Under the pieces are notes generated by a model, which was not told the origin of the DNA, made no database searches, and saw only the letters and a program-made list of their open reading frames with translations. From Cupriavidus oxalaticus (GTDB lineage: Bacteria > Pseudomonadota > Gammaproteobacteria > Burkholderiales > Burkholderiaceae): a DNA stretch of 64,000 nt. The first letter of the stretch is position 1. Each line of letters opens with the position of its first letter. Shown here one piece after another: positions 47,126 through 61,166 of this stretch. Where the stretch lies: positions 806,001 to 870,000 of the forward strand of contig NZ_CP038635.1 in assembly GCF_004768545.1 (NCBI RefSeq). Reading direction: 5' to 3'. The position numbers and the translations under genes were made by a program.

Positions 47126-48526
47126 TCAGTCCAGCGCGCGGTCCTTAGACTCGATATCCACCATGAAGATGGCAAACGCCGCCACCGCCAGGAACGACGA
47201 AAGCAACCCAAGCGCGAGCGTGAACTGGGTGGCCATGATCGGCGCAATGATCGAAGGGGCGAACAGGCCACCGAATCGTGCCATCGCACCGGCGGTGCCC
47301 ATGCCGCTGGCCCGCAGGTCCGTCGGGTACACCTCCGGCGTGAAGGCGTAGAGCGCGCCCCAGGTGCCCAGCAGCGCGAAGCTCATCAACAGGGTGGAGC
47401 CGACGATCAGCGCGGTGGACGTGCCCAGGCTGTACAGCATGCAGCCCGCGGCGCTGAGCAGCAGGAAGCCGATCAGGGTCGGCTTGCGACCCCAGCGCTC
47501 CACGCCGTGCGCGGCGAGCGCGAAGCCGGGGAGCTGGACCAGCGCGAGCAGGATCAGGAAGACCTGGCCACGCATGAAGCCAAAGCCCTGGCCGGCCAGC
47601 TTTACCGGCAGATAGACAAAGACACCGTAATAGGCGATCGAGATCAGCATCCACGCAGCAAGCAGGCAGATGCTGCGGCGCCGGCATCCGGCCGCGAACA
47701 GCGCGAACACCGATTTGCGCTCCATCTTCTGCGGCTCCAGCGGGGCGATCTCGACCGAAACCCGATTGGCCTTGGCAACGCGCTGCAGCACAGCGCGGGC
47801 CTCTTCCGAGCGCCCCGATTTATTCAGGTAGAGCGGCGACTCTGGCACAAAGAACCGAACCACTACGCCGACCAGCGCAGGGAGGCCGGTGACAAAGAAG
47901 ATCATGCGCCAGGCATCGTTGCCTTGCGAGACGGCGACCAGCGCCAGGACGGCGAGCAGGATCGTGCCGACGGCCCAGAACGACTCCAGCAGCACCAGCC
48001 AGCGGCCGCGCCGGTCAGAGGGCAGGAACTCGGCCATCATGGTGTAGTCGACGGGCAACGTGCCGCCCACGCCGATGCCGGTCAGGAAGCGCAGCAGCAG
48101 GAGCCACTGGAAATCCGGGGCGAAGGCGGAGGCGACGCCACAGATGGCGTCAAGGATCACCGCCATCATCAGCACCGGCCGGCGGCCGATCCGGTCCGCC
48201 AGCCGGCCGAACGCGAAGGCGCCGATCAGCATGCCGACGAAGAACATCGTCCCGGTCTGCAAGGCGCTCGGCACGGGGATGCCGAATGTCGCGGCAATGG
48301 AAGGCGCGGTGAATCCGATCGACAGGACCTGCATCGCGTCGGCCAGCCACACCAGGCCGAAAATGCCGAACAGCCGATACTGGAACCGGCCGACACCGGC
48401 TGCGCGGATGCCTTGCTCGATCGTGATGGTCTGGGACGACGATGCCCGCGCGCTTGACTGCGGGGGCACGCTGATCGTCGCTTCGGGGATGGTCGTTGCT
48501 GCCATTGAGGAAATTGATGACGACAT
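47126..48526 (-). CDS. MFS transporter, AAHS-type, NicT-like (nicotinate or 6-hydroxynicotinate uptake)
   Basis: A major facilitator of 466 residues with 12 hydrophobic segments. It has the AAHS signature GRLADRIGRRPVLMM between helices 2 and 3, GIGVGGTLPVDYTMMAEFLPS, and WGRKPTLIGFLLLS between helices 8 and 9. The cytoplasmic N-terminus is long and Ser-rich (about 1-45). It lies beside the nic genes and is transcribed leftward behind a 22-bp palindrome, so it is probably the transporter for nicotinate or 6-hydroxynicotinate (NicT in Pseudomonas putida). The substrate is inferred from context. ATG at 48526 has AGGT upstream. Confidence 0.8.
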   Translation of the reverse strand: MSSSISSMAATTIPEATISVPPQSSARASSSQTITIEQGIRAAGVGRFQYRLFGIFGLVWLADAMQVLSIGFTAPSIAATFGIPVPSALQTGTMFFVGMLIGAFAFGRLADRIGRRPVLMMAVILDAICGVASAFAPDFQWLLLLRFLTGIGVGGTLPVDYTMMAEFLPSDRRGRWLVLLESFWAVGTILLAVLALVAVSQGNDAWRMIFFVTGLPALVGVVVRFFVPESPLYLNKSGRSEEARAVLQRVAKANRVSVEIAPLEPQKMERKSVFALFAAGCRRRSICLLAAWMLISIAYYGVFVYLPVKLAGQGFGFMRGQVFLILLALVQLPGFALAAHGVERWGRKPTLIGFLLLSAAGCMLYSLGTSTALIVGSTLLMSFALLGTWGALYAFTPEVYPTDLRASGMGTAGAMARFGGLFAPSIIAPIMATQFTLALGLLSSFLAVAAFAIFMVDIESKDRALD

Positions 48527-49115: not shown

Positions 49116-52043
49116 TCAGTGGGCAGGCGCCGCGCGCAGCCGCGCGACGGTGTTCTCCAGGTCCTGCCAGGCGGGTTGGTCGGGGGCAAAGCGCGCGCGC
49201 AGGTACTGCGCCAGCTGCGCGATCTGCCGGTCGTCGAAGGTGTCGGCATAGGCCGGCATCGCGCCCAGCTCGCTGTTGGGCGGCGCGGGCATGCCTTGCA
49301 GCAGCACCTGGATCACGTTGTCGGGCAGCTTGCTGTGCAAGTTGGTGTTGAGTGCGAGCGACGGCTTTACGCCAAACTGCGCGATGCCCTGGTCTGATTG
49401 ATGGCACACCGCGCAGGCGCTCTGGTATAGGCGTTCACCGGGGCCGCCGAGGGTGCGTGCAGCCTGTGCGCTGCGTTGTTCGAGTCTGGCAGCCTGCGCG
49501 TCGAGCACGGAAGGCGCTGGCGGCGGCGTGCCGAATGACGCGACGTAATGCGCGATCGCGCGCACATCCGATTCGGGCAACTGCGCGAGTTCTTCCACCA
49601 CCGGCGCCATCGGTCCTGCGGCGGCGCCGTGATGCGGTGCATAGCCGCCGCGCAAGTAGGTAAACAGCGCCGCCTCGGTCCACGGCACCGGTGCGTGGGA
49701 GAGCGATGTCAGCGGCGGTGCCTCCCAGCCTTCGGCACTGCCGCCAGTCAGGTACTTGCGCCCGCCTTGTTCCCCGCCGAGCGCGTTGCGCGGCGAATGG
49801 CAGGCGCTGCAATGGCCCAGCCCCTCGGCGAGATACGCGCCGCGGTTCCACTGCGCGGAGCGCGCGGGGTCGGGCTTGAAGGGTGCGTCGCGATGGAACA
49901 GCAGGTTCCAGCCCGCCAGCAGCGGACGCAGGTTGAACGGGAACGTGAGCCGGGTCTGCGGCACCTCTGACTTCACCGGCTCGGCCGACATCAGGTACGC
50001 ATACAGCGCCTGCATGTCGGCATCGCTGACCTTGGCGAACGCGGTGTAGGGGAAGGCCGGATACAGGCGCCGTCCGTCCCGGTGGATGCCCTCGCGCATC
50101 GCGCGCTCGAAGGCGGCGAACGACCAGTTGCCGATGCCGGTCTGCACATCGGGCGTGATGTTGGTGCTATAGACCGTGCCAAACGGCGTTTCCAGCGGCA
50201 GGCCGCCCGCATTCTTCACGCCGCCGGGGACGGTATGGCATACCGCGCAGTCACCTGCCGCGGCCACCAGGCGGCCGCGTTCCAGCGTGGCCGCGGAATA
50301 GAAGCCGGGCCCGGGCGGTGCGACCGGCGCGATCGGCGCGCGCCACGGCATCAGCGTTGCGCACAGGCCGGCCGCGGTCGCGGCAGCGGCGGCGATCCAG
50401 CCGCGCTTGCTGCGCTTGCCGGCGCGCTTGTCCTCACTCTCGGCCAGCGCCAGGCGGATGCGTTCGGCGCTGAAGGGCGGCGTGCGCAAGCGCACGCCGG
50501 TGGCGTCGAAGATGGCGTTGGCCACGGCGGCAGCCGCGGGCAGCGTATCGGCCGGGCCTGCGGCCAGTTGGTCACGCTCGGTGAGCGTGCCAGCCAGGTG
50601 GACCTCCGGCAATACTGCGCTGGTTGCGACGGCGGGGAGCGATTGGTTGGCAGAAGCCTCCGTGGCAGGCCAGGTATCGAATGCCGGGCTGACAGCGGTC
50701 AATTGCAGGGTAGCGTCGGCAACAGCCTGCTCCAGCGAGCGCGCAGCAGGTGTGGCTTGCGCGGGCGCCAGCGATTCGCTGTCATGCCCCACCGTCACGC
50801 GCGTGACGGCCAGCTCGCCGGTGGTGCCATCGACTTCGACTTCCGCCACCCATGCCGACCAGCTCTGGCCGGCGTCGTGGTCGACGGTGTGCGCATAGGC
50901 AAAACCGCGCCCGCGCCGCACATTGCCTGCCGATGTGGCGGCATGCGGAACGGATGGCGTCCAGCCGGAGCGCTCGCTGACCTGCCTGACGAGGGCCGAG
51001 CCGCGTGAGTCGTCGAGGTGCGAAAGCCGCAGCGCGACCGGGTCGGTGCCGGATGCGGCGGCGATTTCATCGAGATGGGATTCTCGCGCAAAGACATGGG
51101 CGCGCGCCGCCGCAAGCGGTGCGGCATCGAAAGCGGCTACAGCGCCGGCGCTGCCGACATCGACATCGGGAATGCGGTAGGGCGGCATGACTGCGCTGCC
51201 GCTGTCGCCGGTGTCCGTCACGGGCGACGCCGTATGCGTGAGCCAAAGTGCCAGCGGCACCGGCGGCGGAGCCGTGCCGGCCAGTGTTGCGGCGTAGGCG
51301 TCGATGGCATTGCCGCTGCGCGCGCTGTCGATGCATACGGCGAGCTGCGCACCGGACAGGCCGATATCGCCGGCGCACAGCCGGCGCATCACGGGTTTGC
51401 CGGCGGCATGGGCCAGCAGTGCGGCGTCGGCGGCCGCGTGGTGGGCGAGCAGGGCCGGATCGCCGGCGTCGGCGGCCGCCTGCCACCCGGCCAGCGCGAC
51501 CTGTTGCGGCGCAATGCCCAGCAGCGCGGCCAGTTCTTCGCGCAGTGCGCCGTGGCGCAGGCTTGGCAGCCACACATACAGCATGCCGTCGCGCCAGTCC
51601 GCGATCGCGGTGCAGAACGCTTCGGTCCCGGTGCCGGCCAGCGGCCACTGGTAGTGCTGCGCGTGGCGCGTGGCGGCGCTGGCGAGCGCGCGGGTGGCGT
51701 CACCGCGCCGCGCAACGGCGTGGCGCGGTACGGGAGCTTCATCCGCGCGAGGCGGCGCCGACCAGCGTGCCTGCAGGGCCCTGGCGGCGTCGGCCGCCAA
51801 GGCATCGCTTTCCGCGGCCACGCCCGCAAACTGGTTGCGCACCACGGCCGCGCGCACGCCGGGCAACGCCAGCGCGGCATCGCGCTCCGCGCCGAGCAGG
51901 CGTGGTACCAACGGCTTGCCGTCGATCCAGCGCAGCCCTGGCGGCGTCAGCACATGGGCGACGAGGCACATGGAAGCCGGCGGTGGCTCATGTTTCGCCA
52001 GGGCGCCGGTTTGCACGGCCTGTCGCACGAGTTCCTGCTTCAC
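49116..52043 (-). CDS. nicB1: Nicotinate dehydrogenase cytochrome subunit with a degenerate molybdopterin domain
   Basis: Electron-accepting subunit of the nicotinate hydroxylase, 975 residues. Residues about 20-540 look like the molybdopterin domain of IorB/NicB enzymes. The catalytic GAGE motif is replaced (AAGPADTLPAAAAVANAI, about 494), and the block between GHDSE and the C-terminal part is shortened, so this domain is probably inactive. A hydrophobic segment (about 548-568) is followed by three c-type heme sites: CAVCH (599-603), CSACH (745-749) and CAVCH (877-881), placing this part in the periplasm. The GTG start overlaps the nicA stop (GTGA). The GenBank-style name nicB1 is my label by analogy with split NicB in Bordetella. 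Confidence 0.85.
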   Translation of the reverse strand: MKQELVRQAVQTGALAKHEPPPASMCLVAHVLTPPGLRWIDGKPLVPRLLGAERDAALALPGVRAAVVRNQFAGVAAESDALAADAARALQARWSAPPRADEAPVPRHAVARRGDATRALASAATRHAQHYQWPLAGTGTEAFCTAIADWRDGMLYVWLPSLRHGALREELAALLGIAPQQVALAGWQAAADAGDPALLAHHAAADAALLAHAAGKPVMRRLCAGDIGLSGAQLAVCIDSARSGNAIDAYAATLAGTAPPPVPLALWLTHTASPVTDTGDSGSAVMPPYRIPDVDVGSAGAVAAFDAAPLAAARAHVFARESHLDEIAAASGTDPVALRLSHLDDSRGSALVRQVSERSGWTPSVPHAATSAGNVRRGRGFAYAHTVDHDAGQSWSAWVAEVEVDGTTGELAVTRVTVGHDSESLAPAQATPAARSLEQAVADATLQLTAVSPAFDTWPATEASANQSLPAVATSAVLPEVHLAGTLTERDQLAAGPADTLPAAAAVANAIFDATGVRLRTPPFSAERIRLALAESEDKRAGKRSKRGWIAAAAATAAGLCATLMPWRAPIAPVAPPGPGFYSAATLERGRLVAAAGDCAVCHTVPGGVKNAGGLPLETPFGTVYSTNITPDVQTGIGNWSFAAFERAMREGIHRDGRRLYPAFPYTAFAKVSDADMQALYAYLMSAEPVKSEVPQTRLTFPFNLRPLLAGWNLLFHRDAPFKPDPARSAQWNRGAYLAEGLGHCSACHSPRNALGGEQGGRKYLTGGSAEGWEAPPLTSLSHAPVPWTEAALFTYLRGGYAPHHGAAAGPMAPVVEELAQLPESDVRAIAHYVASFGTPPPAPSVLDAQAARLEQRSAQAARTLGGPGERLYQSACAVCHQSDQGIAQFGVKPSLALNTNLHSKLPDNVIQVLLQGMPAPPNSELGAMPAYADTFDDRQIAQLAQYLRARFAPDQPAWQDLENTVARLRAAPAH

Positions 52044-52537
52044 GATGCCGCTCCCACGCCAGCCTGCCGCATCAGCACCGCGGCGCGCTGCACTGCGCGC
52101 ACGATTTCCACATGCGTGCCGCAGCGGCACAGGTTGAAGCGCAGCGCCTCGCGGATCTGCGCTTCGTCAGGATCGGGATTCTGCGCGAGCAGCGCCTTCG
52201 CGGTCATGATCATGCCGTTCAGGCAATAGCCGCATTGTGCGGCCTGCTCGTCGATAAAGGCCTGCTGCACCGGGTCGGGATGCTCCGCCGTGCCCAGGCC
52301 TTCCAGCGTGGTGACCGCGTGGCCCACCGCGGCCCTGACCGGCAGCACGCATGAGCGCGCGGCCAGGCCGTCGACCAGCACCGTGCACGCGCCGCACTGG
52401 CCCAGCCCGCAACCGTACTTGGGGCCATTGCAGGCCAGGTCGTTGCGCAGGATATAGAGCAGCGGCGTGTCGGGCGCCACGCTGAGCGTGTGCTCCGCGT
52501 GGTTGACTTGTAGCGTCAGGGGGCGAGGCGTGTTCAT
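52040..52537 (-). CDS. nicA: Nicotinate dehydrogenase 2Fe-2S subunit
   Basis: Small iron-sulfur subunit of nicotinate hydroxylase (nicotinate to 6-hydroxynicotinate). The 165-residue protein has an N-terminal plant-type ferredoxin domain with KYGCGLGQCGACTV (C43, C48, C51, and C63). The C-terminal helical domain has AAQCGYCLNGMIM (C102, C105) and NLCRCG (C137, C139). These eight cysteines bind two 2Fe-2S clusters, as in IorA/NicA. ATG at 52537 is chosen over a GTG eight codons upstream. It is coupled to the next gene by a GTGA overlap and lies downstream of nicC. Confidence 0.93.
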   Translation of the reverse strand: MNTPRPLTLQVNHAEHTLSVAPDTPLLYILRNDLACNGPKYGCGLGQCGACTVLVDGLAARSCVLPVRAAVGHAVTTLEGLGTAEHPDPVQQAFIDEQAAQCGYCLNGMIMTAKALLAQNPDPDEAQIREALRFNLCRCGTHVEIVRAVQRAAVLMRQAGVGAAS

Positions 52538-52568
52538 CGGGGGCGGCAAGTTGCAGATCACGCGGCAG

Positions 52569-52606
52569 GCACGCCGCGCCCCTTCGTGCGAGGGGCTGCG
52601 GCGTGC
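52569..52606 (-). other. Intercistronic hairpin between nicC and nicA
   Basis: gcacgccgcgcccc faces ggggc-t-gcggcgtgc with one bulge, giving a 14-15 bp GC stem. There is no T-run on the minus strand, so it is more likely a processing or stability element than a terminator. Confidence 0.45.
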
Positions 52607-52633
52607 AGGTTCAGGTCAGGCCTAAGGTCGGTG

Positions 52634-53887
<1,254 letters not shown>

Positions 53888-54030
53888 TCAAGGGCAAGGA
53901 AGAAAATGAGGGTCCTATGGAAAACCCTTATGATCTTATGAGTGTCTGCGCACGATGCTTTAATACGGTGAATTTGTGCGCTAAACAAGGGATTGGTTAA
54001 TTAAGTATGCACTGAACGAGTGAATCGCGC

Positions 54031-54059
54031 TTGGCGCAGATTCTATTTGCCTATATAAA
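54031..54059 (+). promoter_or_regulatory. Promoter of nicE-nicD-nicX-nicF
   Basis: TTGGCG (54031-54036), 17-base spacer, TATAAA (54054-54059), 88 bases before the nicE start. Confidence 0.6.
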
Positions 54060-54070
54060 GTGTGTACACT
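54059..54070 (+). promoter_or_regulatory. AGTGTGTACACT operator candidate, nicE side
   Basis: Plus-strand copy of the 12-mer, overlapping the last base of the -10 and covering the expected start point of the nicE transcript. A repressor bound here would block initiation. Confidence 0.6.
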
Positions 54071-54146
54071 ACAATCGATTCGCAGCATGCAAGGCCATCC
54101 GGGCAGGGCAGGCGGGTAGACAGACAAACAGATAACGGAGTCGACA

Positions 54147-54899
54147 GTGCAGAAAGTTTTCCGAATCGGCCAGATCGTGCCGAGCTCCAACACCACGATG
54201 GAAACCGAGATCCCGGCGATGCTGGCCGCGCGCCAGCAGGTGCGTCCGGAGCGCTTCACCTTCCACGGCAGCCGCATGCGGATGAAGAAGGTGGTCAAGG
54301 AGGAACTGGCGGCCATGGATGCCGAATCCGACCGCTGCGCGGTGGAGCTGAGCGACGCCCGCGTCGACGTGCTCGGCTATGCCTGCCTGGTGGCGATCAT
54401 GGCGATGGGCCACGGCTACCACCGCGTCTCCGAGCAGCGGCTGCAGGCGCACACCGCCGAGAACGGCGGCGACGCGCCGGTGATCACCAGCGCCGGCGCG
54501 CTGGTCGATGCGCTCAAGGTGATGGGCGCCAGGCGCATCGCCGTGGTGGCGCCGTACATGAAGCCGCTGACCGAGCTGGTGGTCGACTACATCCGCAATG
54601 AGGGCTACGAGGTGGTCGACTACCGCGCGCTGGAGATCCCCGACAACCTCGACGTCGGCCGCCACGATCCGTCGCGGCTGCCGGAGATCGTCGCGCAGAT
54701 GGATTTCGCCGATGCCGACGTGATCGTGCTGTCCGCCTGCGTACAGATGCCGTCGCTGCCGGCGGTGGCCAAGGTCGAGGCAATGACGGGCAAGCCGGTG
54801 GTCACCGCCGCCATCGCCACCACCTATGCAATGCTCAAGCGCCTGGGCCTCGAGCCGGTGGTGCCGGGCGCGGGCGCGCTGCTGTCCGGCGCCTACTGA
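54147..54899 (+). CDS. nicE: Maleate isomerase (Asp/Glu racemase fold)
   Basis: Isomerises maleate to fumarate, the last step of nicotinate breakdown, using two cysteines. The 250-residue protein contains RIGQIVPSSNTTMETEIPAML, DVLGYACLVAIMAMGHGYHR (C80) and VLSACVQMPSLPAVAKVEA (C198). This agrees closely with remembered P. putida NicE. Start is a GTG at 54147 behind CGGAG. First gene of the rightward unit, eleven bases before nicD. Confidence 0.95.
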   Translation: MQKVFRIGQIVPSSNTTMETEIPAMLAARQQVRPERFTFHGSRMRMKKVVKEELAAMDAESDRCAVELSDARVDVLGYACLVAIMAMGHGYHRVSEQRLQAHTAENGGDAPVITSAGALVDALKVMGARRIAVVAPYMKPLTELVVDYIRNEGYEVVDYRALEIPDNLDVGRHDPSRLPEIVAQMDFADADVIVLSACVQMPSLPAVAKVEAMTGKPVVTAAIATTYAMLKRLGLEPVVPGAGALLSGAY

Positions 54900-54910
54900 A
54901 GGAGCCGGCC

Positions 54911-55741
54911 ATGGCGACCAGTACTTTCCTTTACGGCGGCAACGTCCATGCCAACGGCATCCGGCAGCACTACCTGCGCTATGGCGGCCAGGACGGCGCG
55001 CGCGCGCAGCGCGATGCCTTGATCATCGTGCCCGGCATCACCAGCCCGGCGGTCACGTGGGGCTTCGTCGGCGAGCAGTTCGGGCGGCAGTTCGATACCT
55101 ATGTGCTCGACGTGCGCGGCCGCGGGCTGTCGCAGGCCGGCGCGGAGCTGGACTATAGCCTCGATGCGCAGGCCGCCGACGTGATCGCGTTTGCCGAAGC
55201 GCTCGGGCTGCAGCGCTACGCCATCGTCGGCCATTCCATGGGCGCGCGCATCGGCATCCGCGCCGCGCATAGCAAGCCCGCTGGCCTGACGCGGCTGGTG
55301 CTGGTCGATCCGCCGGTGTCGGGCCCGGGGCGCCGCGCCTATCCGGCGCAATTGCCGTGGTACATCGATTCGATCCGGCTGGCACAGCAGGGCATCGACG
55401 CGGAAGGCATGCGCCGCTTCTGCCCCACATGGACTGAAGACCAGCTGCGCCTGCGCGCGCAATGGCTGCATACCTGCGACGAGCGCGCGATCCTGGCCAG
55501 CTTCAACGGCTTCCATGAAGACGATATCCACGCCGACCTGCCGCAGGTCGATGTGCCGGTCCTGCTGATGACCGCGGGCCGCGGCGACGTGATCCGCGAG
55601 GAAGACGTGCAGGAAATGCGCAGGCTGCTGCCCGCGCTGCTGGTCGCGCATGTCGCCAATGCCGGCCACATGATCCCGTGGGACGATGAGCCCGGCTTCT
55701 ATCGTGCCTTCGGCGACTTCCTCGGCGCGGCGCTGAACTGA
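54911..55741 (+). CDS. nicD: N-formylmaleamate deformylase
   Basis: Alpha/beta hydrolase that releases formate from N-formylmaleamate to give maleamate. The 276-residue protein has the nucleophile elbow IVGHSMGARIG (S109), with Asp133 in RLVLVDPP and His253 in NAGHMIPWDDE. This triad has the same spacing as the reported S101-D125-H245 of P. putida NicD, shifted by eight. The start follows AAGGAG; the next gene, nicX, begins 13 bases after the stop. Confidence 0.93.
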   Translation: MATSTFLYGGNVHANGIRQHYLRYGGQDGARAQRDALIIVPGITSPAVTWGFVGEQFGRQFDTYVLDVRGRGLSQAGAELDYSLDAQAADVIAFAEALGLQRYAIVGHSMGARIGIRAAHSKPAGLTRLVLVDPPVSGPGRRAYPAQLPWYIDSIRLAQQGIDAEGMRRFCPTWTEDQLRLRAQWLHTCDERAILASFNGFHEDDIHADLPQVDVPVLLMTAGRGDVIREEDVQEMRRLLPALLVAHVANAGHMIPWDDEPGFYRAFGDFLGAALN

Positions 55742-55754
55742 TCAAGGAGGGAAC

Positions 55755-56834
55755 ATGCCCGTAAGCGATTACGACCTGACCGCAGCGTGGAAGCAGGTGC
55801 TGACGCTGTCGAAGCTGCAGCCGGGGCAGACCGTCACCGTGCTGACCGGCGCGGCCACGCATCCGCAGACGCTGCGTACGGCGATGGTGGCGGCGCAGTC
55901 GATGGGCGCCATCGTCAACCGGCTCGACCTGCCGCCGGTTAACGGCGAGAAGGCGCTCAGCCGCGACGCACTAGCCTATCTCGGCACCACGCCGCTGACC
56001 GGCAATCCGGCGGCGATTGCCGCATTGAAAGCAAGCGATTTGGTGCTGGACCTGATGACGCTGCTGTTCTCGCCCGAGCAGCACGAGATACTGTCCGGCG
56101 GCACCAAGATCCTGCTGGCGGTGGAGCCGCCCGAAGTGCTGGCCCGGTTGGTGCCGACCGAGGCCGACCGCGCCCGCGTCAAGGCTGCCACTGAACGGCT
56201 GGGCCGCGCGGGAGAGATGCATATCGTGTCCGAGGCGGGCATGGATCTGCGCTGCAGGCTGGGTGAATTCCCGGCAATCAGCGAGTACGGCTTTGTCGAC
56301 GAGCCCGGCCGCTGGGACCACTGGCCGAGCGGCTTCGTGCTGACCTGGCCGGACGAGGGCGGCACCAACGGCACCATCGTGCTGGACCGCGGCGACATCC
56401 TGCTGCCGATGAAGTCCTATCTGCAGGCGCCGATCCGCATCACGGTGGAGGCCGGCTACGTGCGCCGCATCGAAGGCGGTGTCGATGCCGAGCTGCTGGC
56501 CGACTACATGGCCTCGTTCAACGACCCGGAAGCGTATGCGATGTCGCATATCGGCTGGGGCCTGCAGCCGCGCGCCAGCTGGTCGGCGCTGGCGATGTAC
56601 GACCGCGAGGCCACCATCGGCATGGACGCGCGTGCGTATGAAGGCAATTTCCTGTGCTCGTTCGGCCCCAACAACGAGGCAGGCGGCAGCCGCACCACTG
56701 CCTGCCATATCGATATCCCGGTGCGCCACTGCACGGTCAGCCTCGACGGCGAGCCGGTGGTGGTGCGCGGCAAGGTGATGGACGGGCACCATGCTCCCGC
56801 CGCATCGCTCTACAAGGATTCGCGCCATGGATGA
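55755..56834 (+). CDS. nicX: 2,5-dihydroxypyridine 5,6-dioxygenase
   Basis: Ferrous-iron ring-cleaving enzyme that makes N-formylmaleamate from 2,5-dihydroxypyridine. The 359-residue protein has the metal ligands His265 (SHIGWGLQP), His318 and Asp320 (ACHIDIP), the same numbering as reported for P. putida NicX. FVLTWPDEGGTNGTIVLDRGD and FLCSFGPNNEAGGSRTTACH are family blocks. AAGGAGG precedes the ATG. Its 3' end overlaps nicF by eight bases. Confidence 0.95.
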   Translation: MPVSDYDLTAAWKQVLTLSKLQPGQTVTVLTGAATHPQTLRTAMVAAQSMGAIVNRLDLPPVNGEKALSRDALAYLGTTPLTGNPAAIAALKASDLVLDLMTLLFSPEQHEILSGGTKILLAVEPPEVLARLVPTEADRARVKAATERLGRAGEMHIVSEAGMDLRCRLGEFPAISEYGFVDEPGRWDHWPSGFVLTWPDEGGTNGTIVLDRGDILLPMKSYLQAPIRITVEAGYVRRIEGGVDAELLADYMASFNDPEAYAMSHIGWGLQPRASWSALAMYDREATIGMDARAYEGNFLCSFGPNNEAGGSRTTACHIDIPVRHCTVSLDGEPVVVRGKVMDGHHAPAASLYKDSRHG

Positions 56835-57468
56835 CGCAGTGCAGACCTACCAGCGCCAAGGGTTCGGCGCGTCGATGGAATTGAAAGCGCCGTACGGGCT
56901 GCTGATCATCGACTTCGTCAACGGCTTTGCCGACCCGGCCGTGTTCGGTGGCGGCAATATCCCCGAGGCAATCCGCAACACGCAGCCGCTGCTGCGCGCC
57001 GCGCGCGAGCAGGGCTGGCCGGTGGCGCACAGCCGCATCGTGTTCGCCGACGACGACAGTGACCACAACATCTTCACGCTGAAGGTGCCCGGCATGCTGA
57101 CGCTGAAGGAAGATGGCCACAACAGCCAGCTCGTGCCCGAGCTCGTGCCCGCGCCGGGCGAGCTGGTGGTGCGCAAGACGGTGCCGTCGGCGTTCTTCGG
57201 CACCTCGCTGGCGGCGTGGCTGACGCAGCGCGGCGTGCAGACGCTGCTGGTGGCCGGCTGCGTCACCAGCGGCTGCGTGCGCGCCAGCGTGGTCGATGCG
57301 ATGTCGCTGGGCTTCCGCCCGCTGGTGGTGTCCGATTGCGTGGGCGACCGCGCCATCGGGCCGCACGATGCCAACCTGTTCGACATGGCGCAGAAGTACG
57401 CGACCGTGCTGGCGCGCGACGAGGCGCTGGCGCGGATTGCGGGTGAGGGCGTCCGCGCCGCCGCCTGA
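56827..57468 (+). CDS. nicF: Maleamate amidohydrolase (isochorismatase family)
   Basis: Hydrolyses maleamate to maleate and ammonia. The 213-residue cysteine hydrolase shows the triad Asp29 (LLIIDFVNGF), Lys117 (VVRKTVPSAFFGT) and Cys150 (AGCVTSGCVRASVVDAM). The ATG at 56827 overlaps the end of nicX, so translation is coupled. It ends the rightward nicE-nicD-nicX-nicF unit and converges on nicS. Confidence 0.94.
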   Translation: MDDAVQTYQRQGFGASMELKAPYGLLIIDFVNGFADPAVFGGGNIPEAIRNTQPLLRAAREQGWPVAHSRIVFADDDSDHNIFTLKVPGMLTLKEDGHNSQLVPELVPAPGELVVRKTVPSAFFGTSLAAWLTQRGVQTLLVAGCVTSGCVRASVVDAMSLGFRPLVVSDCVGDRAIGPHDANLFDMAQKYATVLARDEALARIAGEGVRAAA

Positions 57469-57487
57469 GGCGACCCGGCGCCGCGTC

Positions 57488-58255
57488 TCAGCCTGCAGCC
57501 GCGCGCCTGTTGCGTGCGGCCTTGCGCGCCGGCGTAGCCGGCGGCACGCTGGCTTCCGGCACGGCGCCGGGCAGCGTCACCGTGCGCAGCACTGTCTGCT
57601 GGATCACATCGCGCCAGTGCGCCAAGGCGGGCGGGCTCATCATGGCCTCGCCCAGGAAGGCGCTGAGCGTATGATGGTTGGAGTTGTAGAAGTAGCCGAG
57701 CGAGGCGATCACCATGTAGACATCGCGCGCGCCGGTCTCGGGACGGAATAGCCCGGCGGACTTGCCGCGTGTGAGGATCCCGTCGAGCACCGACAGCGCG
57801 TAGCTGGAGATTTCCTTGAGGCGGACCGACTTCTTCGCGTGCTTGCCCTGGCTCATGTTCTCGCTGGACAGGATCGCGACGAATTCGGGGTGGTCGAGGT
57901 AGTACTGCCAGATGAAGTCGACCAGCTGCGACAGCGCGCGCACCGGGTCGGCGGCGTCGAGTTCCTGCTCGAGCTGCTGCTCGGCTTCGTTGAGCTGCAG
58001 GTAGATGGTCTCCAGCACTTCGACGAACAGCTTTTCCTTGCTGCCGAAGTAGTAGTAGATCATCCGGTCATAGGTCTTGGCCAGCGACGAAATGCGTTCG
58101 ATGCGGCCGCCGTCATAGCCGCGCTGGGCGAAGACCTTGATCGCCGCTTTCAGGATGCGGTCGCGGCTGTCCTGCGCCTGCCTGGCCCGCGTGCCTGGGG
58201 CAGCCCGCTTGGGAGCCTGCTTGGCGGCAGGTTTCGCCGCGGTGGTGTTCGTCAT
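57488..58255 (-). CDS. TetR-family regulator, NicS-like
   Basis: Putative repressor of the nicotinate hydroxylase genes, 255 residues. The N-terminal helix-turn-helix is RILKAAIKVFAQRGYDGGRIERISSLAKTYDRMIYYYFGSKEKLFVEVLE. The effector domain follows (VRALSQLVDFIWQYYLDHPEF, VYMVIASLGYFYNSNHH). Both ends carry Ala/Lys/Arg-rich extensions. It is divergent from the molybdopterin subunit gene with a 15-bp palindrome between them. Assignment as NicS rests on family and place. Confidence 0.75.
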   Translation of the reverse strand: MTNTTAAKPAAKQAPKRAAPGTRARQAQDSRDRILKAAIKVFAQRGYDGGRIERISSLAKTYDRMIYYYFGSKEKLFVEVLETIYLQLNEAEQQLEQELDAADPVRALSQLVDFIWQYYLDHPEFVAILSSENMSQGKHAKKSVRLKEISSYALSVLDGILTRGKSAGLFRPETGARDVYMVIASLGYFYNSNHHTLSAFLGEAMMSPPALAHWRDVIQQTVLRTVTLPGAVPEASVPPATPARKAARNRRAAAG

Positions 58256-58293
58256 GATGATTGGGTGGCTCTGACTCCGTTGGCTGGCAGTAT

Positions 58294-58308
58294 AACGGGG
58301 GCCCCGTT
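58294..58308. promoter_or_regulatory. 15-bp palindrome between nicS and nicB2
   Basis: aacgggg-g-ccccgtt, a perfect odd palindrome, lies 19 bases before the nicB2 start and overlaps the likely leader of both divergent genes. A TetR-type operator is the natural guess, and it differs from the nicC/nicE 12-mer. Confidence 0.5.
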
Positions 58309-58326
58309 GAAGGAGATGGGAAGACG

Positions 58327-60606
58327 ATGACCGCAACAACGCTGCAACCCGCGGCACAGGCCGATCCCGCCACGCCGCGCGCACTGCGGCTGGCGTTGCT
58401 GCAGGCCGTCGGCGTGCTGCTGGTCACGCGCGCGCCGCAGGCGGCGGCGCGTCCCGCGCCCGGCCAGCCCGGCGCGGCGTCGGACTACGTGCCGGCGCTG
58501 CCCGATATCTTCATCGCCGTGCGCGACAGTGGCGAGGTGCTGGCCTTCAACGGCCATGTCGACCTTGGCACCGGCATCCGCACGGCGCTGGCGCAGATCG
58601 TGGCGGAAGAACTCGACGTGCCGCTGCCGCAGGTGCGCATGGTGCTGGGCCATACCGAGGCCACGCCCAACCAGGGCCCGACCATCGCCAGCGCATCGAT
58701 CCAGATTTCCGCCATCCCGCTGCGCCGCGCCGCGGCGCAGGCGCGCGCGTGGCTGCTGGCGCGCGCCGCGCAACAGCTCGGCGTGGCGCCCGACCAGCTC
58801 GAAGCGCAGGATGGCGAGTTCCGCGTGCGCGGGTCCGGCGCCGCCATCGGCTATGGCGCGCTGGTGCAAGGCGAGCACGTGGCGCTGCCGTTGGCCGATG
58901 ACGTGCCGATCAAGCCGGTGGAGTCCTACCGCATCGTCGGCCGCCCGGCCGGACGCGTCGATATCCCCGACAAGGCACGCGGCGTGCTGACTTTCGTCCA
59001 TGACGTGCGCGTGCCCGGCATGCTGCATGGGCGCGTGGTGCGGCCACCTTACGCCGGGCGCGACAGCGGCGGCTTCGTCGGCAACAGCCTGCTCGCGGTC
59101 GACCGCGAATCGGTGCGCGATGTGCCGGGACTGGTCGACGTGGTGGTGCAGGGCGACTTCGTCGGCGTGGTGGCCGAGCGTGAAGAGTACGCGGTGCTTG
59201 CCGCGCGCAAGCTGCGGGTGCAGTGGAAACCCGTGCCGCCGATGCCGTCGCTCGCCGACCCTGAACCCGCGCTGCGCGCCAACCCCGCAACGCGGCGCGA
59301 ACTGCTGAATGACGGCGAGATGCCTGCGGCCGGTACCGGCAAGACGCTGGATCGCCATTACGTCTGGCCATACCAGATGCACGGTTCGATCGGCCCCTCA
59401 TGCGCGGTTGCGGACTGGCATGAGGATGGCCTGACGGTATGGTCGGGCACGCAGAATCCGCATGTTCTGCGCATCGACCTGGCACGCCTGTGCGGGCTGG
59501 GCGAGGACCGCATCGAGATCGTGCGCATGGAAGCCTCGGGCTGCTACGGCCGCAATTGCGCGGACGATGTCTGCGCCGATGCCGCGCTGCTGTCGCGCGC
59601 CGTCGGCCATCCGGTGCGCGTGCAGCTGTCGCGCGAGCAGGAGCACCTGTGGGAACCCAAGGGCGCGGCCCAGCTGATGGATGTCAGCGCAACGCTGGGC
59701 GCCGACGGCGAACTGCTCGGCTATGACTTCACCAGCCGCTATCCGTCCAACGATGCGCCGACGCTGGCGCTGGTGCTCGCCGGCATCGTGCCCAACGCGC
59801 CGCGCACGCTGGAAATGGGCGACCGCACCGCGGTGCCGCCGTATGACTACCGCGCGCGCCGCATCGGCTGCGACGACACGCCCGCCATCGTGCGCGCGTC
59901 ATGGTTGCGTGGCGTATCGGCGCTGCCGAATTCGTTCGCGCATGAATGCGTGATCGATGAACTGGCTGCCGAAGCCGGCGCCGATCCGATCGATTTCCGG
60001 CTGCGTCATTTGCCGGACACGCGCGCAGCCGAACTGCTGCGCGCGGTGGCCGACGCGGCGGGCTGGCAGCGGGGCGCGCACGGTTCGCGTGGCAAGGCTG
60101 GCAACGACGGCATGCTGCGCGGGCGCGGCGTTGCCTATGCGCGCTATATCCACAGCCGCTTCCCAGGCTTCGGCGCGGCATGGGCGGCATGGGTGGTCGA
60201 CGTGGCGGTGGAGGCGGCAACGGGCCGCATCGCCGTGGAGAAACTGGTGGTCGGGCAGGACACCGGCATGATGGTCAACCCGGACGGCGTGCGCCACCAG
60301 ATCCACGGCAACGTGGTGCAGGCCTTGAGCCGGGTGTTGAAGGAGCAGGTGCGCTTCGACGCCGACGGTGTCGCCAGCCGCGAGTGGGGCAGCTATCCGT
60401 TGCTGACCTTTCCGGAGATCCCGCCGATCGAGGTGGTGCTGATGCCGCGGCAGGAAGAGCCGCCGATGGGGGCAGGGGAGTCGGCATCGCTGCCGGGGGC
60501 GCCGGCAATTGCCAATGCGTTGTTCGATGCGATCGGCGTGCGTCTGCGGCGGCCGCCGTTCGTGCCGGAGACAGTGTTGGCGGCGCTAAGGAGCGAGCGC
60601 CCTTAA
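58327..60606 (+). CDS. nicB2: Nicotinate dehydrogenase molybdopterin subunit (catalytic)
   Basis: Molybdenum-cytosine-dinucleotide type hydroxylase subunit of the IorB/NicB kind, 759 residues. Motifs: FNGHVDLGTGIRTALAQI, TPNQGPTIASASIQIS, YVWPYQMHGSIGPSCAVADW, GRNCADDVCADAALLSRAV and the catalytic Glu in PMGAGESASLPGAPAIANAL (about E718). It lacks the cytochrome domains that P. putida NicB carries in the same chain; those are in nicB1. The ATG at 58327 follows GGAGATGGG. It is divergent from the TetR gene. nicB2 is my label; it is paralogous to the dead domain of nicB1. Confidence 0.85.
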   Translation: MTATTLQPAAQADPATPRALRLALLQAVGVLLVTRAPQAAARPAPGQPGAASDYVPALPDIFIAVRDSGEVLAFNGHVDLGTGIRTALAQIVAEELDVPLPQVRMVLGHTEATPNQGPTIASASIQISAIPLRRAAAQARAWLLARAAQQLGVAPDQLEAQDGEFRVRGSGAAIGYGALVQGEHVALPLADDVPIKPVESYRIVGRPAGRVDIPDKARGVLTFVHDVRVPGMLHGRVVRPPYAGRDSGGFVGNSLLAVDRESVRDVPGLVDVVVQGDFVGVVAEREEYAVLAARKLRVQWKPVPPMPSLADPEPALRANPATRRELLNDGEMPAAGTGKTLDRHYVWPYQMHGSIGPSCAVADWHEDGLTVWSGTQNPHVLRIDLARLCGLGEDRIEIVRMEASGCYGRNCADDVCADAALLSRAVGHPVRVQLSREQEHLWEPKGAAQLMDVSATLGADGELLGYDFTSRYPSNDAPTLALVLAGIVPNAPRTLEMGDRTAVPPYDYRARRIGCDDTPAIVRASWLRGVSALPNSFAHECVIDELAAEAGADPIDFRLRHLPDTRAAELLRAVADAAGWQRGAHGSRGKAGNDGMLRGRGVAYARYIHSRFPGFGAAWAAWVVDVAVEAATGRIAVEKLVVGQDTGMMVNPDGVRHQIHGNVVQALSRVLKEQVRFDADGVASREWGSYPLLTFPEIPPIEVVLMPRQEEPPMGAGESASLPGAPAIANALFDAIGVRLRRPPFVPETVLAALRSERP

Positions 60607-60677: not shown

Positions 60678-61166
60678 TTACACGCCGCCATTCCCCTCAT
60701 CGATCTCGCTCATCTTCCGCAGCAGGTAAGTCACCGCCACTCGCTCCGCCGGATTCAGGCTGCCAAACGTCTGCTCCGAGATCTGCTTCGCAAACGGCAC
60801 CGTCTCGTCGATCAACGCCAGCCCCCCGGGGGTCACCGTCACCACCACCTTGCGCCGGTCGTTCGGGTCATGCGACACCGCAATCAGCTTGCGTGCCTTC
60901 AGCCGCTCGATGATGCCGCGCACCGTCGCCTGGTCGATCGCCGTGGCGCGCACCACTTCATTCAGCGAGCACGGCTGCCGGTCCCTGACCGCGCACAGCA
61001 CCACGAACTGCGCCGCGGTGAGCTGCGAATCCGGGATGGTCTGCTGGAAGATCGCCACGTGGCGCTGGTACGCGCGGCGCAGCAGGTGGCCCACCTGCTC
61101 GGTGAAATCGTAGTCGGGGGCGGCCTGGTCTGCTGACGATGCGGAGGATGCGGAGGGGTTGGGCAC
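60678..61166 (-). CDS. MarR-family regulator, NicR/BpsR-like
   Basis: A winged-helix regulator of 162 residues. The MarR core runs LTAAQFVVLCAVRDRQPCSLNEVVRATAIDQATVRGIIERLKARKLIAVSHDPNDRRKVVVTVTPGG. In P. putida and Bordetella, MarR proteins in nic clusters repress with 6-hydroxynicotinate as the effector; the same role here is inferred from family and place. The start is a GTG at 61166. The Bug-type binding protein gene lies 67 bases upstream on the same strand. Confidence 0.8.
   Translation of the reverse strand: MPNPSASSASSADQAAPDYDFTEQVGHLLRRAYQRHVAIFQQTIPDSQLTAAQFVVLCAVRDRQPCSLNEVVRATAIDQATVRGIIERLKARKLIAVSHDPNDRRKVVVTVTPGGLALIDETVPFAKQISEQTFGSLNPAERVAVTYLLRKMSEIDEGNGGV

Follow-up and report, generated by a model that had tools for sequence, protein, structure and literature searches.

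The 64,000-nt stretch of Cupriavidus oxalaticus DNA analyzed here (contig NZ_CP038635.1, positions 806,001 to 870,000; referred to as the window, from whose first letter all coordinates are counted) contains a cluster of nicotinate degradation genes, which includes two genes for proteins related to the molybdenum subunit of nicotinate dehydrogenase. One of these proteins, NicB2 (or NicB-Mo; 58327–60606, forward strand; 759 amino acids, aa), is an intact molybdenum subunit, while the other, NicB-cyt (49116–52043, reverse strand; 975 aa), consists of a dead molybdenum-type domain, an anchor helix and three haem c domains. Why is a broken copy kept beside an intact one? Its retention in nearly all of the related clusters examined suggests that its present role is attachment and not catalysis. 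The explanation that we favor, with a probability of roughly 0.55, is that the N-terminal half of NicB-cyt, an anchored cytochrome with three haems, is a pseudoenzyme and serves to dock the hydroxylase formed by NicA and NicB2. The activity concerned (conversion of nicotinate to 6-hydroxynicotinate) is probable, being assigned from the gene cluster alone.

A molybdenum-type domain without its cofactor site

The layout of NicB-cyt was established from its open reading frame and from family scans. The dead domain (50424–51983; residues ~21–540) is followed by a Lys/Arg-rich stretch and a predicted membrane anchor helix (50343–50432; residues 538–567), a layout that relatives share, and then by three haem-binding CxxCH motifs (50235–50249, 49797–49811 and 49401–49415; residues 599–603, 745–749 and 877–881, respectively), all on the reverse strand. 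These three motifs and the sequence match to solved members identify the protein as a trihaem cytochrome c subunit of the alcohol/aldehyde dehydrogenase (ADH/ALDH) type. Residues 547–974 of its predicted structure (mean predicted local distance difference test score, pLDDT, 83.8; predicted template modeling score, pTM, 0.65) align with residues 5–436 of chain A of the Gluconobacter oxydans membrane-bound aldehyde dehydrogenase (PDB 8gy3_A).

In Pfam scans only the cytochrome part scored above the cut-off (PF00034, PF13442); MoCoBD_1 and MoCoBD_2 reached 23.4 and 14.4 bits in the dead domain, below the Pfam cut-off of 27. According to the structural model, the domain retains the fold of a molybdenum subunit of the xanthine oxidase family over approximately 450 residues.

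For the same two families NicB2 gave 92.1 and 137.2 bits, which establishes its membership (PF20256, E 1e-39; PF02738, E 3.9e-26). Its domain order, with one PF20256 part near the N-terminus (positions 51–183), followed by PF02738 and by another stretch of PF20256, is permuted relative to that of the xanthine dehydrogenase type. The predicted structure of NicB2 (pLDDT 89.3, pTM 0.90) matches 8gy3_C best and PaoABC second best.

Alignment of the two proteins (BLASTP, 30% identity, E 1e-48; residues 78–562 of a 1004-aa frame of NicB-cyt against residues 277–776 of a 781-aa frame of NicB2) revealed what has been lost. A reading made from the sequence alone (the sequence-only reading) had described a 975-residue cytochrome protein with a molybdopterin-like domain, in which Pro replaces the Glu of the GAGE motif, and a haem-free paralogue that keeps GAGES. 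Both observations were borne out: Pro497 occupies the position of the glutamate (LAAGP; 50553–50555, reverse strand), and NicB2 contains Glu718 within GAGES (60478–60480, forward strand) and no CxxCH motif. We take the GxGE glutamate to be the catalytic base. The same reading had also placed a truncation in the C-terminal part of the dead domain, and this was not supported. The final segment is the best-preserved part, with conservation equal to that in NicB2, while the missing portion comprises the N-terminal ~200 residues, where NicB2 has the PF20256 match at positions 51–183.

The loss extends beyond the glutamate. We compared six motifs (N1–M4), those that contact the cofactor in solved structures of the family, over thinned sets of 48 dead, 18 full-length and 25 NicB2 rows. 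Mean agreement with the NicB2 consensus was 0.71–0.95 in full-length NicB and 0.88–0.98 in NicB2, and in the dead rows it fell to 0.00 (N1), 0.03 (N2), 0.15 (M1), 0.08 (M2), 0.18 (M3) and 0.12 (M4), with N1 and N2 belonging to the absent N-terminal segment. For comparison, the shared part, taken in blocks of 40 columns, matched NicB2 at 0.15–0.59 in the same rows. The N-terminal domain of NicB-cyt has lost all six of the cofactor motifs examined.

The same holds for its relatives. In 78 of 78 dead-type proteins (930–1060 aa, three CxxCH motifs) the glutamate column contains no E (A in 29, P in 24, G in 18, D in 4, and T, Q and S in one each), whereas E is kept in 23/23 full-length proteins. 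Among the locus rows E is aligned in two of 46 (Paraburkholderia, L147 and L150), where the glycines are missing and the domain is further shortened, and one row (the fusion of G592, L198–L199) has an alignment gap in place of the GAGE-bearing stretch. The GxGE glutamate is present in 45 of 48 active locus rows, the other three being gaps in frames that end at contig or fetch ends. Among NicB2-like proteins (the best 120 of several thousand), GxGE(S/A/G) occurs in 120/120 and CxxCH in 0/120. The idea that two half-domains jointly form one active site was rejected as unneeded, since every motif examined is present in NicB2.

The GTG start codon of NicB-cyt (52043–52041) overlaps the stop codon of nicA as GTGA. 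In all 42 locus fusions read the layout is identical and the start codon, as assigned by our start-finding script on the assumption that these are the true starts, lies −21 to +9 nt from the end of nicA, with a 4-nt overlap of the GTGA/ATGA kind in 32 of them. An origin by artefact or frameshift was ruled out because of this shared start layout and because the N-terminal segment would need to overlap nicA. Three of the 40 fusions from the genus (G016, G025 and G047) had one stop flagged inside the match; their open frames nonetheless span 1100, 1005 and 1002 aa. An apparent split of the fusion into a dead and a haem gene in G036 was dismissed, as both pieces stop at contig ends.

Co-inheritance, selection and descent

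To define how the two genes are distributed, we took nicX as an anchor and read flanks of up to 10 kb in the best 80 named loci out of at least 580 confirmed relatives. The dead fusion was found in 30 loci, NicB2 in 31 and both in 30, in each of which nicA accompanies them. NicB2 alone was found on a 7.1-kb contig (L139) and nicA alone on a 4.8-kb contig (L089); the remaining 48 had neither gene and no nicA above 150 bits, so that the later pathway is presumably fed there by something else. Loci with both genes belong to Cupriavidus, Bordetella, Achromobacter, Delftia, Paracidovorax, Herbaspirillum, Caballeronia, Paraburkholderia, Pandoraea, Alcaligenes and Paenalcaligenes. Among the matches listed for 100 genomes drawn as relatives (the window genome included), both genes were present in 40 (one being G036, with the fusion cut over two contigs) and neither in 58. 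Two drafts were ambiguous: G052 (86% complete) had NicB2 and only fragments of the haem part, and in G048 (78% complete) NicB2 was not matched and the haem part was represented by a fragment where a contig ends. Four genomes of another order of the same class (G454, G592, G694, G699) also carry both genes. The dead fusion is thus co-inherited with NicB2.

In Pseudomonas putida, according to the sequence-only reading, both functions reside in one NicB chain, and two proteins named for this species (P0289 and P0298; 1187 aa, GSGES, three CxxCH motifs) conform to this. NicAB of P. putida belongs to the same family, and these proteins share with NicB-cyt the succession of molybdenum domain, Lys/Arg-rich stretch with hydrophobic helix, and three haems. 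However, their single chain has an intact active site, whereas in Cupriavidus the chain is dead, lacking the N-terminal segment and the glutamate of a fused NicB, and a separate NicB2 is intact. Both GxGES and at least three CxxCH motifs occur in 120/120 full-length proteins (1180–1202 aa; the best 120 of several thousand). Full-length fusions were found at L068 (identical to a protein named for Erwinia sp.), in Pantoea, Serratia and Pseudomonas by protein name, and, within the phylum, in genomes that belong to other classes (L083 of G508; G662, G668 and G693); the fusion-protein listing also includes the names Xanthobacter and Rubrivivax.

A tripartite make-up of the enzyme has already been published. 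The consulted parts of one paper describe NicA/NicB1/NicB2 in Bordetella and Burkholderia gladioli (PMC10269826), those of a second list nicB1 and nicB2 for Delftia (PMC4572682), and those of a third name nicA and nicB (PMC6837509). The Bordetella, Achromobacter and Delftia loci analyzed here hold the same two genes as the window. The naming in the Delftia paper, as far as it was consulted, is the reverse of ours, in that the gene beside nicA is nicB2 and an "aldehyde dehydrogenase" is nicB1. The dead domain is not mentioned in the consulted parts of PMC10269826 and PMC4572682. In the open-licence literature searched, outside which the primary nic papers lie, we found no description of a pseudoenzyme of this family or of a dead domain coupled to NicB2.

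The dead domain is under purifying selection. Ratios of nonsynonymous to synonymous substitution (dN/dS; Nei-Gojobori, against the window sequence at 26 loci, among which the pairs L086/L174 and L087/L173 each denote a single place) were 0.17–0.50 for this domain, 0.05–0.24 for the haem part and 0.07–0.39 for the NicB2 core, where 0.39 stems from a truncated row of 174 codons (L081) and the next highest value is 0.26. Pairwise distances (−ln identity; 817 pairs from 41 loci) of the dead domain correlate with those of NicB2 (r 0.94) and exceed them 2.87-fold at the median (range 2.19 to 9.97).

Two trees were calculated, both as quick searches without bootstrap. The first comprised 106 of 123 rows (51 dead, 31 active, 18 full-length and 6 outgroup), one row with fewer than 300 filled columns being dropped and the rest thinned at 92% identity. 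Each form occupied one side of a branch, with support of 98 (dead), 99 (active), 91 (full) and 100 (outgroup). In the second tree (84 rows, thinned at 80%), five dead rows (L152, L130, L132, L154 and P0075) were left out, and the genomes of other orders and a P. putida-named protein were added. The dead and active groups persisted (98 and 99) with the added rows inside their own groups, and support for the full-length group dropped to 54. Joins among the dead rows are unsure, as several of them form long branches. These trees do not conflict with each form having arisen once, in which case either the split predates the present spread of the genes or they spread as a unit.

The sequence-only reading had explained the arrangement by duplication followed by division of labour. 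This agrees with the joint separation of dead, active and full forms from the six IorB-type outgroup rows (support 100), but the branching order (p-AU, from the approximately unbiased test, 0.497 with dead and active forms constrained together; support of 81 for active with full) leaves a duplication of fused NicB indistinguishable from fission or other orders.

Proposed docking and its alternatives

In the scheme that we favor, NicA and NicB2 would form the hydroxylase, with catalysis by NicB2. The dead domain would lie on the cytosolic face and hold NicA-NicB2 at the membrane by docking to the anchored cytochrome, so that this contact would do the job of the covalent fusion in P. putida NicB; the partner bound may be either NicA or NicB2. 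The sequence-only reading had suggested that the dead domain might either dock the active one or pair with it as a dimer. Docking is favored because the pair is co-inherited and because the domain keeps its fold, at least as predicted.

The proposed orientation rests on the positive charges preceding the helix and on the lack of an export signal. Attachment of haem c is confined to the periplasm, and the simplest reading would place the molybdenum part inside and the haems outside. A hydrophobic helix with a Lys/Arg-rich front precedes the first haem in 38 of 42 dead fusions and in both full-length ones, as located by a script that chose another segment in L071, L082, L111 and L149; there are 3–9 Lys/Arg in the 20 residues before it and 0–2 in the 15 after. 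The helix of NicB-cyt aligns with the N-terminus of 8gy3_A, and its counterpart in free-standing Cupriavidus cytochromes is their N-terminal hydrophobic stretch.

Within the first 40 residues, RRx(hydrophobic) occurs in 13/119 NicB2-like proteins, 2/23 full-length NicB, 0/78 dead fusions and five of six IorB-type outgroup proteins (the sixth, P0120, has no motif by its start). The mean best 15-mer hydropathy was 1.16, 1.01 and 1.01 in the first three groups and 1.72 in five IorB-type proteins; the loci of the window genome (L001–L008) gave no useful starts, their frames beginning far upstream or lying on the opposite strand. The twin-arginine translocation (Tat) signal of periplasmic relatives thus appears to be largely lost in the NicB family. 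At the position of the Tat signal of relatives, a stretch resembling GVLLVTRAPQAA..PAPGQPGAAS recurs at the N-termini of NicB2 proteins, as if a former signal peptide were now part of the mature protein.

Several observations weigh against docking at the cytosolic face. The dead domain changes fast relative to NicB2, and a correlation like that between the two would be expected for any pair of genes within a cluster. The dead part is reduced in Caballeronia, Paraburkholderia and Pandoraea, where 406–539 residues separate the first start from the first haem, compared with mostly ~580–650 elsewhere. This shrinkage implies that at most the C-terminal half of the domain is generally needed, and the functional contact, if any, most likely lies there, since the shortest forms (406–449 residues; L130, L132, L147, L150, L153 and L159) keep about that half. 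The 13 NicB2-like proteins with the arginine motif speak against a cytosolic placement for some members. Finally, a cytosolic molybdenum part and periplasmic haems would be separated by a distance over which one helix would not be expected to carry electrons, and the path to the haems is without explanation. How electrons from a molybdenum enzyme with no export signal get to periplasmic haems is thus a question raised by this locus.

One extension, which we put forward tentatively, would apply to the whole NicB family: following the loss of the Tat signal it may have become a membrane-straddling hydroxylase, with NicA and catalysis in the cytosol and haems in the periplasm. In the lineage with separate proteins, which comprises Burkholderiales and some genomes from other orders, the dead domain would be a dedicated cytosolic dock for NicA and the active NicB2, and electrons would cross by a further route.

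The dead domain could instead be a passenger, that is, a remnant in the course of erosion that binds no particular partner and is kept as a lead into the anchor helix and as a translationally coupled start. Its rapid evolution and the N-terminal erosion in three genera fit this account, but dN/dS values well under 1, a final segment conserved as in NicB2 and a fold retained in the model do not. Moreover, in the loci read, every frame that strongly matches the haem part also has a molybdenum-type part, except L076, which is cut by a contig end. We regard a mere passenger as rather unlikely.

Two further proposals are compatible with docking, and we consider both of them improbable. In one, the dead domain replaces the second molybdenum subunit of the twofold dimer of the family to give a lopsided NicB2/NicB-cyt pair, for which the predicted fold over ~450 residues would be suitable. 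According to the consulted part of PMC3958847, the majority of solved family members form dimers, but PaoABC, the second-best fold match of NicB2, is not dimeric via its molybdenum cofactor (Moco) domain.

In the other, the complex as a whole is periplasmic: the dead domain is exported along with NicA and NicB2 and meets NicB2 outside, as in the Gluconobacter aldehyde dehydrogenase. This would solve the electron path, and it draws on the arginine motif still present in some NicB2-like proteins and on the twin-arginine signal-like starts of the molybdenum subunit in 7/7 free-standing Cupriavidus operons read (7 of 10 loci; L203, L204 and L209 were left out). It is opposed by the absence of the motif from the dead fusions, its rarity in full-length NicB and the weaker hydrophobic stretch. 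The Gluconobacter enzyme itself differs in having separate chains, with no dead domain in those matched, and in the alignment its large subunit shows a twin arginine at a place where NicB2 lacks one. Lastly, it is very improbable that NicB2 is not the hydroxylase subunit and that NicA is partnered by another molybdenum protein: the genome does have further genes for molybdenum subunits (PF20256 gave 19 match rows, with more than one row per gene), but NicB2 lies inside the nic cluster and stands with nicA and the dead fusion at 30/30 loci.

These findings recast a protein that frequently carries no other name than "c-type cytochrome" as a pseudoenzyme subunit that is conserved and yields predictions open to testing, and they offer a possible reason for the tripartite enzyme of Bordetella, Achromobacter, Delftia and Cupriavidus versus the two-part enzyme of Pseudomonas. 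The database name "nicotinate dehydrogenase subunit B" should be treated with caution, as it covers both the dead and the active protein.

The surrounding cluster and related operons

The gene for the [2Fe-2S] subunit NicA (52040–52561, reverse strand; PF01799, E 1.5e-29; PF00111, E 6.4e-6) is given as its longest frame, and the true start may be further in. The names nicC, nicE, nicD, nicX and nicF are presumed by position in the cluster. They apply to genes for a flavin adenine dinucleotide (FAD) monooxygenase (nicC-type; 52634–53821, reverse strand; PF01494) and, on the forward strand, a maleate isomerase (nicE-type; 54147–54899; PF17645, Amdase family), a deformylase (nicD-type; 54911–55741; alpha/beta hydrolase, PF00561), a 2,5-dihydroxypyridine dioxygenase (nicX-type; 55755–56834), which had no Pfam or NCBIfam match at the thresholds used and is kept beside other nic genes in relatives, and a maleamate amidohydrolase (nicF-type; 56791–57468; PF00857), whose longest frame overlaps nicX by 44 nt.

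The cluster is flanked on the reverse strand by genes for a nicT-like transporter of the major facilitator superfamily (MFS; 47126–48526; PF07690, E 5.5e-49) and a MarR regulator (60678–61166; PF01047), called BpsR/NicR-like by analogy. Between nicF and NicB2 lies a TetR-family regulator gene (57488–58384, reverse strand, longest frame; PF17938 and PF00440). Counterparts were tagged at 11 Cupriavidus loci and at no locus of another genus in the nicX-anchored set; a weak match (33%) lies by another cluster, L066.

The window genome has a second maleamate cluster (L065, 7180–14314; approx. 2007180–2014314 of G000:C1), with nicE, nicD, nicX and nicF 91, 76, 80 and 74% identical to those of the window. 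It holds a different molybdenum-subunit frame (809 aa) and a nicA-like gene (39%), and the cytochrome fusion was not found beside it in the 19 kb of L065 read.

The free-standing Cupriavidus operons (L202–L207, L210 and L211) encode a cytochrome 48–53% identical to the haem part of NicB-cyt, and a nicA-like gene adjoins it. They differ from the window cluster in having separate genes with no dead domain seen and, at L202, L205–L207, L210 and L211, a twin-arginine signal-like start. In seven of these eight three-gene operons (trihaem cytochrome, nicA-like gene and molybdenum subunit) a weakly nicC-like frame (24–28%) adjoins.

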